From an uncultured Prevotellaceae bacterium (GTDB lineage Bacteria > Bacteroidota > Bacteroidia > Bacteroidales > UBA932): 64,000 nt of DNA. The DNA is taken from positions 186,001 to 250,000 of the forward strand of contig CAMVFZ010000001.1 of the NCBI GenBank assembly GCA_947166905.1, read 5' to 3'. This document shows positions 40,034 through 45,569 of this stretch, piece by piece. Position 1 is the stretch's first letter. Every line of letters starts with the position of its first letter. A model generated the notes under the pieces. The model did no database searches. It had not been told where the DNA came from and saw only the letters and a list, made by a program, of their open reading frames with translations. The position numbers and the translations under genes are program-made.

Positions 40034-42964
40034 TTACTTCAAAGCGTCGATTACGGAACGATTGGCTTTATGAAGGCGGTCGATGGGGAGCTTGGGAATA
40101 CGGTCATAAGTCATAAGGCCGTTGACCTCAATCTCAACATCAGTAGTCTGCGTATAAACAGCTGCAGAAACACCCTCGCTGACGGTTCCAGCCAGCTGGG
40201 CGGCAAACTCCTCGTACTTGGCTATAACCTCATCGGCAGTCTGGAAGCCGATGTAACCCCAGTTGCGGTCCGGCTGCCACAGATGCCCCTGAACCGGCAA
40301 GCCAAGGCCGCCGTATTCGCCAAGAACATCTATCTGCCGGCCGTCGCTGCGAAGCTTCATCACAGGCTCAGGATAATTATGGCTATCCAGGATATCGCCG
40401 CAAAGTCTGTGGCTGCCACCGGAAGCAGAATTAACCAGACGAGTCGGATCAAGACTCTTTGTATACTCCGCCACCTTCTCTGTATCGAACTGACTCCAGG
40501 CCTCGTTGAAAGGCACCCACACCACGATTGAAGGGAAGCATTTACGCTGGCCGATAATCTCTGTCCACTCTTTATAGTAAGTCTCTTTTGCCGATTCCGT
40601 AAGCGGATAATCATAACCCTCGCCATAAGCGTACATGCCCCACTGGGCAGGCTTGCCACCCTTGTTGGCCGTAAGCGAAGGCATATCCTGCCATACAAGT
40701 ATACCAAGGCGGTCACACCAGGTGTACCAGCGCTCAGGCTCAACCTTGATATGCTTTCGAATCATATTGAAGCCGAACTCCTTTGTCTTTTCAAGGTCGA
40801 AGCGTAGAGCCTCGTCAGTAGGAGCCGTGTACAAGCCGTCAGGCCACCAGCCCTGGTCCAGAGGGCCGAACTGGAACAGCGGCTTGCCGTTCAGGCCAAG
40901 GCGTTTAAAGCCTTTATCATCGATGGCCTCTGATACCGTGCGCATGGCAAGATAACCATGTACCTTGTCCAGTTCCTGGTCATTATCGTCATACGCAACA
41001 AGCTCAAGGGCATATAGATACGGGCTGTCAGGGCTCCAAAGTTTAGCATCGGGAAGTTGTACGAAAGCTTGGTCGCCAACCCTGATATCGGCACTGGAAA
41101 CCAGGTCTCCCATAGGATCAGACTCGCTGTTGTAACCGACTCCGCCCTGATACACGTTCACTGTTATATAGCCGCCTGCATCAAACACTTCCGGGGCATC
41201 CACAGTCACTGAGGCAAAGCCAAGGGAGGAATCCGCAAGGGCATAATATGAGTTGATTCGTTTAGCCGGAACGGGCTCCAGCCATACGCTCTGCCAGATG
41301 CCGGAAACGGCCGTATACCATATTCCATGGGGCTTCAGCACCTGCTTGCCACGGGGCTGCTCGCCATTATTGGTACCATCTTCAACCCTTACTGTTAGTT
41401 CATTCTGCCCGGGCTTAAGAAGGGATGTAATGTCATAGCTAAAGCTGGTGTATCCACCGGTATGGGTACCTGCCTCCTGTCCGTTCACATAGACTGTGGA
41501 CTTCCAGTCAACAGCTCCAAAGTGAAGTAGGACTCGCTCCCCTTCCGGAGCCGTGAAGGTCTTGCGATACCAAAGCACATCGTCCGGAGTAAGGGTTTTG
41601 CCAACGCCGGACAAGGCTGATTCAAGGCAGAAGGGAACCAGAATCTTACCGTCTGCGTACTGGGGGAACTGACCGTACTCTGCAATTCTTGGCATTATTG
41701 CATAGTCCCACAGGCCGTTCAGGCTGGCCCAGGCACAATCCCTGACCATAATAGGACGCGGGTATTCAGGATGGGCATTCTCAGGGGTAACATCTGCGGC
41801 CCACTGAGTCTTAATACGGTCCCCGGCAGGAGCCCATTCAGGCTCAACTCCAAAGCGATAAACTGCTGTGTGTGAGTACTTTTCGCCTGCCTTAAGAATT
41901 ACAGAAGGGAAGTTTTCATGGTTCACTGCATCAGGCCATTTCTGAGTTTCCAGTACAACGGCGCAGCGACGGCTGAAAGGCTTACCCAATTTACCGCAGT
42001 CCTTTCCGTCAAAGAAGTTTCCGCTGTAGAACTGAAGGCCAGGCTGGTCTGTCAGCACCTCTACGTAACGTCCTGTAACATGGTCTGTTACGCGTGCAGC
42101 AAATTCAAGGCTGTCGGCAGTCTTACGGTCCAGACACCAGTTGTGGTCATAACCATTGCCGTTCTGGAGCTGATAGTTGGGCTCATTTATAAACTGGCCG
42201 ATAGCATGGCCCCTGCGAAAGTCGAACGGCGTACCGTCAACGGACTCAACCTCACCGGTTGGTATCGACAGGTTGTTAATGGGCAAGTATGCCGATGCTG
42301 CTATCTGCAACTCGTATTCTTCTATGCTTGTTTCAGTATCGCCGCGAAGATTAAAAAACGGATGATGGGCCATATTAACAGGAGTATCCTTATCAGACTC
42401 GGCCCCCATCACAACCTTTAGGGAAGCATCGGCAAGAAGCTGATATTCAATGGTGTAAGCGGTGTTGCCAGGGAAGCCGTCTTCTCCGTCTTTCCACCCC
42501 AGCGACAGGCGGATTGTGGAGTCTGTCACGGACACGACGTCCCAGGCCCGCATATCCAGGCCTTTGAAACCGCCATGGAGGGTCTGCACGAAGTTGTTGT
42601 TGACATCGGTATGATATTCAACTCCGTTAAGGGTATAGGTTGCATTGGCGATACGATTGGCGACGGGGCCTACAGTCGACCCCAGAAAGCGTTCGCCGGC
42701 GTATGGATGTTGATAGGAGTCCAGGCTGTCGCGGCCAAGAACGATGTCGGCCAGATTGCCGTCACGGTCAGGGGTATAAAGGCTGACTACTCTTGCGCCG
42801 AAGTTTGTAATCTGCGCTGTTACGCCTCCGTTACTAAGCGTGTACAGTCCAATTTGCACACCATCAACCTCTCCTTTGAACGCCTCTTCCGACACCATAC
42901 GCAGTCCCCCACCGCCACATCCTGCCATCACCACTGCCACAAACATCCATAATACCCTTTTCAT
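40034..42964 (-). CDS. Aldose 1-epimerase::GH2 glycosidase fusion lipoprotein
   Basis: One open frame of 976 residues joins two enzymes. After a lipobox (VVMAGC, residue 16), residues about 30-378 are a galactose mutarotase: VGPVANRIANA, the catalytic AHHPFFNL near 197, GYDHNWCLD near 264 and the base Glu in LETQKWPDAVN near 340. Residues about 395-965 are a family 2 glycoside hydrolase: sugar-binding, Ig-like and TIM-barrel domains with acid/base Glu in VPFNEAW near 820 and nucleophile Glu in GEYGG near 883. The usual RxSHYP motif is replaced by MIRKHIKVEP, so specificity is unclear. Probable job: cleave a beta-linked galactoside (or similar) and convert the beta-sugar to the alpha anomer. 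It ends the nahK-GH109 operon. Confidence 0.85.
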   Translation of the reverse strand: MKRVLWMFVAVVMAGCGGGGLRMVSEEAFKGEVDGVQIGLYTLSNGGVTAQITNFGARVVSLYTPDRDGNLADIVLGRDSLDSYQHPYAGERFLGSTVGPVANRIANATYTLNGVEYHTDVNNNFVQTLHGGFKGLDMRAWDVVSVTDSTIRLSLGWKDGEDGFPGNTAYTIEYQLLADASLKVVMGAESDKDTPVNMAHHPFFNLRGDTETSIEEYELQIAASAYLPINNLSIPTGEVESVDGTPFDFRRGHAIGQFINEPNYQLQNGNGYDHNWCLDRKTADSLEFAARVTDHVTGRYVEVLTDQPGLQFYSGNFFDGKDCGKLGKPFSRRCAVVLETQKWPDAVNHENFPSVILKAGEKYSHTAVYRFGVEPEWAPAGDRIKTQWAADVTPENAHPEYPRPIMVRDCAWASLNGLWDYAIMPRIAEYGQFPQYADGKILVPFCLESALSGVGKTLTPDDVLWYRKTFTAPEGERVLLHFGAVDWKSTVYVNGQEAGTHTGGYTSFSYDITSLLKPGQNELTVRVEDGTNNGEQPRGKQVLKPHGIWYTAVSGIWQSVWLEPVPAKRINSYYALADSSLGFASVTVDAPEVFDAGGYITVNVYQGGVGYNSESDPMGDLVSSADIRVGDQAFVQLPDAKLWSPDSPYLYALELVAYDDNDQELDKVHGYLAMRTVSEAIDDKGFKRLGLNGKPLFQFGPLDQGWWPDGLYTAPTDEALRFDLEKTKEFGFNMIRKHIKVEPERWYTWCDRLGILVWQDMPSLTANKGGKPAQWGMYAYGEGYDYPLTESAKETYYKEWTEIIGQRKCFPSIVVWVPFNEAWSQFDTEKVAEYTKSLDPTRLVNSASGGSHRLCGDILDSHNYPEPVMKLRSDGRQIDVLGEYGGLGLPVQGHLWQPDRNWGYIGFQTADEVIAKYEEFAAQLAGTVSEGVSAAVYTQTTDVEIEVNGLMTYDRIPKLPIDRLHKANRSVIDALK

Positions 42965-43035: not shown

Positions 43036-44412
43036 TTACAAAGCATAAGAAAAACCTTTGACCTTATCCCACTCACCACGAGTAAAATCAGGAACCTCTA
43101 CCGGCGCACAGCCATTCTCAATAGAAATCCTGGAAAGCTCGCTCAAGCAACACCACTCCGCAAGATCATAAACATCCATATCAAGTGGCAAACCCCTCTG
43201 AAGGCAATAAATCAAACGATAATCCATAATGAAATCCATTCCACCATGACCACCAACCTTCTTTGCCACATCTTCAAGCTCCTGAGTAAGAATAGGAGAA
43301 CTGTACTGCGCCTGAAGAGCCTTGGCATCATCGCCCATAATCAGGGTCTCATTGCCGATGGAATTGGCATCAGCCTCCAGCTTCTCCCGCAGACAGAACA
43401 CATTCACAGGATACTTGGCAGCGTAGCCCTCTGTTCCGACAAGCTGATACATACGGCTATACGGCCTGGGAGTAAGGACATCGTGCTGAATAAGCATGGT
43501 CTTACCCTTGGCGGTACGGATCTGGGTGCTGGTGACATCGCCATTCTTAAAATCCGGACAAGGCTTGCCATCATAAAACTCTGCCGCCTTGGGGCCATTG
43601 AAAGGATCGGTATCCATGGATGTGAGGACAGTCATACGATCTCCCCTATGGATGTTAAGTGCCTGACAGATAGGGCCGATGCCATGTGTAGGATAGAGGT
43701 CTCCCCTGTTGGCCTTGTTGTAGTCAAGACGCCATGAATGCCAGTACTCATGCCAGAAAGGCTCAAGGTTATGATGATATGAACCCTCTGCATGGATAAT
43801 CTCTCCAAACAGACCGCTCTGGGCCATTGCAAGCGCATTCATCTCAAAGAAGTCGTACACGCAATTCTCCAGCATCATACAATGCTTGCGGGTACGCTCC
43901 GATGCATCGATAAGGGCCCAGATTTCATCAAGAGTCAAAGCCGCAGGGACTTCAATTGCAGTATGCTTGCCGCACTCCATCGCATAAAGGCCGATGGGAG
44001 CATGATTCAGCCAGTCAGTGCAGATGTAAACAAGATCTACGTCATCGCGCTCGCACAAGCCTTTCCAGGAATCCTTGTCCCCGCCGAAGCATTCCGGCTC
44101 CGGGAACCCATTCTCTACCAGCCAGTTGCACGAAGCCGCCACCCTATCCGGTTCAATGTCGCAGATTGCAGTAATCTCTGCACCGGGGACCTTGGTAAGA
44201 CGCCTTACTGCCGACGACCCCCTCATTCCAACGCCAACTACGCCGATGCGAACCGTGGGCAAAGGCTCCGCCGTAAGCCCAAGAACACTCTCCTGGCCAG
44301 CCGGGCGCTCAGGGACAGGGGTTTTGATGATATAGGATTTCTCCTCATTTTTGCAATTGCAGGAAAGCAGGGCAAAGGCCGCTGCCGCCATTAGCAAATA
44401 TCTGAGTTTCAT
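43036..44412 (-). CDS. GH109-type lipoprotein (Gfo/Idh/MocA fold), likely alpha-N-acetylgalactosaminidase
   Basis: The 458-residue product has a lipobox ending ALLSC (residue 18). A Rossmann fold with GVVGVGMRGSSAVRRL near 58 and CDIEPDRV binds NAD. EVPAALTLDE near 150, the His-rich YHHNLEPFWHEYW near 224 and the C-terminal MDFIMDYRLIYCL and DVYDLAEWCC match glycoside hydrolase family 109, which uses NAD and an oxidation-elimination cycle and retains configuration. Known members remove alpha-GalNAc from blood-group A and mucin glycans. It lies 11 bases after the kinase and 71 before the mutarotase-GH2 gene. Confidence 0.82.
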   Translation of the reverse strand: MKLRYLLMAAAAFALLSCNCKNEEKSYIIKTPVPERPAGQESVLGLTAEPLPTVRIGVVGVGMRGSSAVRRLTKVPGAEITAICDIEPDRVAASCNWLVENGFPEPECFGGDKDSWKGLCERDDVDLVYICTDWLNHAPIGLYAMECGKHTAIEVPAALTLDEIWALIDASERTRKHCMMLENCVYDFFEMNALAMAQSGLFGEIIHAEGSYHHNLEPFWHEYWHSWRLDYNKANRGDLYPTHGIGPICQALNIHRGDRMTVLTSMDTDPFNGPKAAEFYDGKPCPDFKNGDVTSTQIRTAKGKTMLIQHDVLTPRPYSRMYQLVGTEGYAAKYPVNVFCLREKLEADANSIGNETLIMGDDAKALQAQYSSPILTQELEDVAKKVGGHGGMDFIMDYRLIYCLQRGLPLDMDVYDLAEWCCLSELSRISIENGCAPVEVPDFTRGEWDKVKGFSYAL

Positions 44413-44423
44413 GATATTACGCT

Positions 44424-45500
44424 TTAGTTTTCTTCTATGAATTTCTTAATTTCCGGAAGGGCAGCGTTCACGCTGTCAAAGAGCTTCATCTGGGCGGCCG
44501 TGCGCACCAGGTTATGTTCAGGATACTTAATCTTGTAGTAAGTATCGCCATTGATATAATCTGCCAGGAAGCGCACAGCCTGCATGTACGGGAACAGCTG
44601 AACAGCATAAGGCAGGTTTTCTTTCTCTATCGGGGTAAGAAACGTAGCTTCCTTCAGATAGCCCTTGGCAAAGGACTTGAAGATTTCCATATTGAAGCCC
44701 ATCTTGTCCAGATCGGGCTCGTCCTCCGGAGCAGTTGCAGCTCCTGTACGCAAAAAGTCACCAAAGTCAGAGAAAACATAGCTGGGCATTACGGTATCAA
44801 GGTCGATGACGCAAAGTATGGAACCGTCGCCGTCAAAGAGGATGTTGTTGACCTTGGTATCGCAGTGGCATACTCGCTTGGGCAGTTTACCCTCGCGATG
44901 CAGGGCCTCTGCCTTGCACATTTCTTCTTTCCAGGGATGGATACGGGCAAGAAGCTCCTTGACTCGGGGGTCAGCCATCCTGCCGGCAGCATCGGCAGCT
45001 TCTGCCTCTTCAAGCTGACGGGCACGGAGTTCCATGTTATGGAAGTCCGGGATAGTCTCACCAAGGTCCTCGGGGATATCGGCCAGCATGGCTTCAAAAC
45101 GGCCGAAGGCCTCGCCGGCATAATAAGCGTACTCCGGATTTACGGCCTCGAATGTAAAGGCGTCCTTAATAAAGACAGAAAGGCGCCAGAATTTGCCGTC
45201 GGCAGACTGATAATAAGTCTTTTTGCCGTCCTTTAATGGCATGAATCTGAGCACCTTGCGGTCTAAATCCTTTTCTCCGGAGAGTTTTGCACGGATGTGG
45301 CTTGTTACTAATTCAAGATTCCGTTGCAGCAGGTCTACATCCTTGAAGATGGCATTGTTAATCCGCTGTAGAACATAATCCTGCCCACCATCCGTCTTAA
45401 CTTTGTAAGTGTCGTTGATTAGACCATTTCCAAGAGGTGAAATGTCCAATACTTTTCCGCAGATAGCAAACTGCGATACAATTTCAATTAAATGAGTCAT
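44424..45500 (-). CDS. N-acetylhexosamine 1-kinase-like phosphotransferase (NahK-like)
   Basis: The start is ATG 45500; the track's 45551 start is inside the promoter. The 358-residue cytoplasmic protein has the APH kinase fold: LGNGLINDTYKV near 24, catalytic HCDTKVNNILF near 211 and metal-binding VIDLDTVMP near 232. The segments ATAPEDEPDLDKMGF and KYPEHNLVRTAAQMKL closely resemble the bifidobacterial lacto-N-biose pathway kinase NahK/LnpB, which makes GlcNAc-1-P or GalNAc-1-P. It is the first gene of the operon and would capture sugars released by the two lipoprotein hydrolases. Choline or homoserine kinase activity is less likely. Confidence 0.82.
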   Translation of the reverse strand: MTHLIEIVSQFAICGKVLDISPLGNGLINDTYKVKTDGGQDYVLQRINNAIFKDVDLLQRNLELVTSHIRAKLSGEKDLDRKVLRFMPLKDGKKTYYQSADGKFWRLSVFIKDAFTFEAVNPEYAYYAGEAFGRFEAMLADIPEDLGETIPDFHNMELRARQLEEAEAADAAGRMADPRVKELLARIHPWKEEMCKAEALHREGKLPKRVCHCDTKVNNILFDGDGSILCVIDLDTVMPSYVFSDFGDFLRTGAATAPEDEPDLDKMGFNMEIFKSFAKGYLKEATFLTPIEKENLPYAVQLFPYMQAVRFLADYINGDTYYKIKYPEHNLVRTAAQMKLFDSVNAALPEIKKFIEEN

Positions 45501-45504
45501 AAAA

Positions 45505-45548
45505 AGTATATTTGGCAAATACAGTTGTCTGTACTTGCCAAATATACT
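45505..45548. promoter_or_regulatory. 20-bp near-perfect inverted repeat (candidate operator) over the nahK promoter
   Basis: The left arm (45505-45524, AGTATATTTGGCAAATACAG) and the reverse complement of the right arm (45529-45548) agree at 19 of 20 positions around a TTGT centre. The minus-strand -7 box (45539-45546) and the predicted start (about 45534) both lie inside it, as does a mirror-image TATATTTG on the plus strand. The size and overlap fit an operator for a dimeric repressor. It is followed by TTTTT on the minus strand, so a role as htpG terminator or attenuator is the main alternative. Confidence 0.75.
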
Positions 45549-45569
45549 CATTTTAAATCTTATTTCAAA
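45539..45569 (-). promoter_or_regulatory. Consensus promoter of the nahK-GH109-mutarotase/GH2 operon
   Basis: On the minus strand TTTG (45566-45569) is followed after exactly 19 bases by TATATTTG (45539-45546). The -33 box lies in the last codons of htpG. The start point would be near 45534, giving a 34-nt leader whose first 16 nt can fold (GUACAG-acaa-CUGUAU). Confidence 0.8.

Follow-up and report, generated by a model that had tools for sequence, protein, structure and literature searches.

The closest described relatives of the mutarotase reported here are the GalM enzymes of human (GALM, PDB 1SNZ) and Lactococcus, which have in common with it a full-length domain and the conserved catalytic Arg, His, His, Asp and Glu residues, whereas the domain described here comes after a lipobox and shares its chain with a glycosidase. 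A mutarotase joined to another sugar enzyme is also found in the bifunctional GAL10 protein (1Z45), the mutarotase part of which matches as well; its fusion partner, however, is UDP-galactose 4-epimerase and not a glycosidase.

Group III of glycoside hydrolase family 2 (GH2) is the group with furanosidase activities, comprising β-D-galactofuranosidase and α-L-arabinofuranosidase (PMC12243196). The β-D-galactofuranosidase of Streptomyces sp. JHA19 (9J6M/9J6N, CAZy GH2_18) resembles the glycosidase half of our protein in sequence (41% identity over the GH2 domain), in fold (TM 0.93) and in its acid/base and nucleophile motifs, but it has no mutarotase domain. A GH2 protein of Bacteroides cellulosilyticus deposited as β-galactosidase (7SF2; 51% identity, TM 0.95) differs likewise in being without a mutarotase; no characterisation of it was found in a literature search. 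With respect to the enzyme classes encoded together, the closest described system is BT4240-BT4243 of B. theta, in which a kinase, a GH2 enzyme, a transporter and a GH109 enzyme are encoded in one PUL; the kinase BT4240 phosphorylates O1, and BT4243-GH109 acts on the T-antigen only after BT4241-GH2, a β-1,3-galactosidase (PMC11992087). The terms mutarotase and epimerase are absent from the main text of that paper.

Here, we describe a fusion of the two enzyme types in an uncultured gut bacterium of the Bacteroidales (Prevotellaceae), taken here to belong to the genus Cryptobacteroides. The window analysed is a stretch of 64,000 nucleotides (GCA_947166905.1, contig CAMVFZ010000001.1, positions 186,001 to 250,000), and all coordinates refer to it.

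The Fusion Gene and Its Two Domains

The fusion gene starts with ATG and runs through 976 codons with zero internal stops (Table 1), the GH2 domain beginning a few residues past the end of the mutarotase domain. The whole fused chain was modelled confidently by AlphaFold2, with a pLDDT of 90.9 and a pTM of 0.86. A sequencing error or mis-join of two genes was ruled out, as both domains share a single frame, in the same order, in 12 genomes; 10 of the 11 further fusions of this order showed 57-84% identity to the window protein in full-length alignment. Judged by these data, the fusion is a real and recurrent bifunctional enzyme made from two known families, for which a literature search retrieved no characterisation.

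Table 1: Features of the fusion gene and its apparent operon in the window.
Feature	Coordinates	Strand	Basis and remarks
Mutarotase-GH2 fusion gene	40034..42964	(-)	976 aa; ORF call, Pfam, AlphaFold2 model
Signal peptide and lipobox (VMAG-C16)	42917..42964	(-)	Read directly from sequence
Aldose 1-epimerase (mutarotase) domain, residues 21-372	41849..42904	(-)	PF01263; 1SNZ match; fold match
GH2 domain of group III (residues 374-976); closest characterised subfamily, GH2_18	40037..41845	(-)	PDB sequence matches and fold
GH109-like gene, lipobox-like N-terminus	43036..44412	(-)	Glyco_hydro_109_C; PDB 6T2B, 276 bits; 71 bp upstream of the fusion, apparent same operon
N-acetylhexosamine 1-kinase-like (APH family) gene	44424..45551	(-)	Pfam APH; 4OCU NahK, 232 bits; 11 bp upstream of GH109, apparent same operon

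The Pfam family Aldose_epim matches residues 40-369 over almost its whole profile (E 3e-76, profile positions 2-298 of 299). Residues R104, H130 (in LHGG), H201 (HHPFFNL), D273 (DHNW) and E339 (LETQKWPD) align to the catalytic residues of human GALM, which matches the domain with 242 bits and, on the basis of the fused-chain model, with a TM of 0.94 by target length. The score against the galM_Leloir equivalog TIGR02636 (283.9 bits) is below the curated cut-off of 397.65, that against the subfamily PRK11055 (258.1 bits) above the cut-off of 240, and by these profiles the domain is placed in the wider GalM-type aldose 1-epimerase family, outside the TIGR02636 equivalog.

The GH2 half contains Glyco_hydro_2_N (residues 462-562), Glyco_hydro_2 (629-675) and Glyco_hydro_2_C (718-958), with the acid/base E821 in WVPFNEAW (NE motif) and the nucleophile E883 in VLGEYGG. 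The half does not conform to a classical LacZ-type β-galactosidase: the characteristic RxxHYP (RxSHYP) is missing, IRKHIKVEP standing in that position, and the LacZ equivalog profiles score far under their cut-offs. Matches in the PDB were instead obtained with 7SF2 (653 bits), 9J6N/9J6M (~442) and 7XYR (265), all other GH2 entries reaching at most 91 bits. Based on this difference in bits between structures of GH2_18/GH2_19, which make up group III, and any other GH2, the glycosidase half groups with group III, the characterised members of which cut furanosides. The TM scores given above for 7SF2 and 9J6N were obtained, likewise by target length, with the fused-chain model, the only one of our models that was compared with the PDB. 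In group III a Thr is conserved at the position of the -1 subsite Trp of other GH2 enzymes; the segment YTQTTDVE of the fusion, which matches YTEITDVE of 9J6N by sequence, may contain the corresponding column. Since the GH2 half falls in group III, the sugar it frees is probably a furanose, either β-D-galactofuranose (Galf) or α-L-arabinofuranose (Araf), and not a β-pyranose.

At the N-terminus, a lipobox (VMAGC, Cys16) was identified by inspection of the sequence. It is followed by GGGGL, and an acidic lipoprotein export signal was not apparent by eye. The fusion product is probably a lipoprotein facing the periplasm, a location predicted from the lipobox alone.

A preliminary description of this DNA had proposed a single chain of mutarotase and GH2 enzyme in an uninterrupted 976-codon frame, with the mutarotase motifs HHPFFNL, DHNW and a terminal Glu, complete GH2 acid/base and nucleophile motifs but no RxSHYP, and one lipobox ahead of both domains, all of which our analysis confirmed. 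Its suggestion that the GH2 enzyme might have a new substrate was not supported, as this half falls in the furanosidase group, and the β-sugar it assumed to be freed is, from the same placement, less likely to be a β-pyranose than a furanose.

Distribution and Gene Neighbourhood

This type of GH2 enzyme was detected in 254 of 400 Cryptobacteroides genomes. The mutarotase-GH2 order in one frame is present in 12 of the 400, including that of the window (G000, G321, G187, G344, G379, G189, G105, G034, G100, G262, G402, G075), and a junction query detected the reverse order, GH2-mutarotase, in one frame in 15, six of which were read as full sequences. A further reverse-order fusion was found at locus L195 of the genome collection, and that of genome G018 was also modelled confidently by AlphaFold2, with a pLDDT of 87.9 and a pTM of 0.88. 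Outside the genus, no fusion of the window's order was found among the 256 other genomes of an order-wide sample, and none of the reverse order among 217 other Bacteroidota genomes sampled. The preliminary description had held that it would be refuted if an architecture search showed the fusion to be common and characterised before. Half of this applies: the architecture recurs within one genus, but the papers searched yielded no characterisation of it.

The mutarotase tree separates the two fusion orders into different clades. Neither order is monophyletic in this tree or in that of the GH2 domain, and the reverse order needs at least two changes. More than one event must therefore have taken place, although for the order seen in the window the trees do not separate gains from losses.

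Separate genes encode the two enzymes in isolates of Dysgonomonas (D. alginatilytica, D. macrotermitis), Bacteroides sp. 51 and Albibacterium, the mutarotase gene preceding the GH2 gene with a gap of 3-30 bp and each product carrying a signal-like N-terminus of its own. In Proteiniphilum and Flavobacterium both genes occur in one cluster, with other genes, including GH43, in between. Counts of such neighbourhoods from the genome collection are biased upward, the collection having been ranked in favour of loci with both genes. The GH2 part of the fusion starts approximately where the unfused GH2 protein follows its signal peptide (W-x-P-x-G-D/N-x-I). Being fused in both orders and encoded by adjacent genes in other families, the mutarotase and the GH2 enzyme very probably work together. 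The fusion itself probably arose from a tandem gene pair that is still separate in other Bacteroidota.

Several further arrangements were observed. Genome G366 encodes a GH109-GH2 fusion of 1061 aa (L105:8727-11912) without a mutarotase, at a locus syntenic to the window operon, between HtpG-kinase and RecQ-PEPCK. In G411 (L116:6915-10079) and also at L145, a GH2 enzyme of the same type is joined to a 3-keto-disaccharide hydrolase domain (PF06439) and ~280 aa without Pfam match, and in G244 (L121:7083-9482) it carries a C-terminal extension of ~200 aa that appears SGNH/GDSL-like by eye. In addition, a groEL gene lies beside or near this GH2 gene, the mutarotase gene or the fusion at six loci of genus genomes (L021, L025, L028, L043, L045 and L046).

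Operon Context

The order kinase-GH109-fusion is conserved in the window and in the neighbouring lineages G321 and G187, and the kinase-GH109 pair also recurs without the fusion. As in BT4240-BT4243, an N-acetylhexosamine 1-kinase, a GH109 and a GH2 enzyme appear to be encoded together in one operon, but the GH2 enzyme of B. theta is a β-1,3-galactosidase, whereas that of the window groups with furanosidases. Characterised relatives of the operon kinase act on GalNAc/GlcNAc, sugars which this GH2 type is not known to release. The genome of the window contains a second mutarotase, signal-less and located 4.7 kb from galK, so that an exported fusion would not be needed merely to feed galactokinase. 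With an export signal on the fusion, cytosolic kinases and this other mutarotase near galK, the earlier idea that the fusion directly supplies galactokinase or a 1-kinase appears doubtful.

Proposed Mechanism and Alternative Explanations

From the intact fusion, its active-site motifs, the group III placement, the recurrent linkage and the operon-like context, as read from the sequence, we infer a lipoprotein with two active sites, a group III furanosidase and a mutarotase acting on the freed furanose, and we assign this explanation a probability of about 0.5. As a retaining enzyme acting on a glycan or glycopeptide, the GH2 domain would remove a terminal β-D-galactofuranosyl residue or its stereochemical equivalent α-L-arabinofuranosyl. 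On release of the furanose, the attached GalM-type mutarotase would speed ring opening and interconversion, and the sugar would thereby reach the anomer or ring form taken by the importer, most likely galactopyranose. Such a protein would have originated when tandem mutarotase and GH2 genes lost the stop codon and the second signal peptide that had kept them apart. It seems to us rather unlikely that the fused GalM is a dedicated furanose mutarotase, to which freshly released Galf is passed from the other active site and which turns it into galactopyranose extracytoplasmically; the protein would then be a one-protein furanosidase-to-pyranose converter.

The same architecture could serve L-arabinofuranose, with an α-L-arabinofuranosidase and an L-arabinose mutarotase as in arabinan-type loci, given that group III holds both activities. 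For Dysgonomonas and Bacteroides sp. 51, the loci of the unfused pairs do point to L-arabinofuranose, as they contain SusCD-like genes and GH43 genes, one of the latter being closest to endo-arabinanases. Moreover, a mutarotase of the same wider family adjoins an AraA-like gene in an arabinose-type operon (L056; genes named by eye). In the genus of the window the evidence differs. An L-arabinose isomerase (AraA) domain was found in 0 of the 12 mutarotase-GH2 genomes, that of the window included, and in 1 of 27 with either order, compared to 57 of 227 other carriers of the GH2 gene, a contrast with a nominal Fisher p of 0.013 that is uncorrected for shared ancestry and includes many incomplete MAGs. 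In the genome of the window, which is 99% complete, no AraA match was found and GalK is present. Galactokinase was detected in 25 of the 26 genomes searched (12 mutarotase-GH2, 13 reverse-order and G366), the sole exception, G402, being 70% complete. Since AraA is mostly missing and galactokinase nearly universal in fusion genomes, D-galactofuranose is favoured over L-arabinofuranose as the substrate sugar. In addition, the genome of the window contains a single GH43 gene, and no GH43 or SusCD gene was found among the annotated window neighbours. We therefore regard L-arabinofuranose as a rather improbable substrate of the window's fusion. A literature search found no paper on an arabinofuranose mutarotase.

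A salvage operon for O-glycans and GalNAc similar to BT4240-BT4243, in which the GH2 enzyme uncaps GalNAc, GH109 frees it, the kinase produces GalNAc-1-P and the mutarotase acts on whatever sugar the GH2 enzyme has released, would be in line with the conserved gene order, the kinase-GH109 pairs that occur without the fusion and the GH109-GH2 fusion of G366 at the same locus, as well as with the dependence of the B. theta GH109 on prior GH2 action and the phosphorylation of O1 by its kinase (PMC11992087). It is nevertheless not a likely explanation, considering the difference between the β-1,3-galactosidase activity published for BT4241 and the furanosidase-type grouping of the window enzyme, and the fact that the other fusions examined are not adjacent to kinase or GH109 genes. 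There is a somewhat better, though still less than even, chance that two neighbouring genes have simply come to be read through as one, neutrally and without kinetic coupling. Adjacency in several relatives would make such a fusion mechanically easy, and the same GH2 enzyme has joined other partners, namely GH109 (G366), the 3-keto-disaccharide hydrolase (G411) and the SGNH-like extension (G244). On the other hand, fusions occur in both orders, the proteins that were read have retained the motifs, and the genes are neighbours in several families, which argues for one pathway even without channelling. Both GalNAc salvage and neutral read-through can be compatible with the furanosidase-mutarotase explanation, so that our confidences in them are not exclusive.

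The group III placement also bears on GH2 annotation, as 7SF2, deposited as β-galactosidase, and 7XYR, deposited as β-glucuronidase, are together with 9J6M nearest to the group III furanosidases and may be misnamed. By both fusion orders and by gene neighbourhood, a mutarotase is tied to one furanosidase-type subfamily, which makes a neglected question testable, namely whether a bacterium that has cleaved off Galf or Araf must accelerate the furanose-to-pyranose interconversion.
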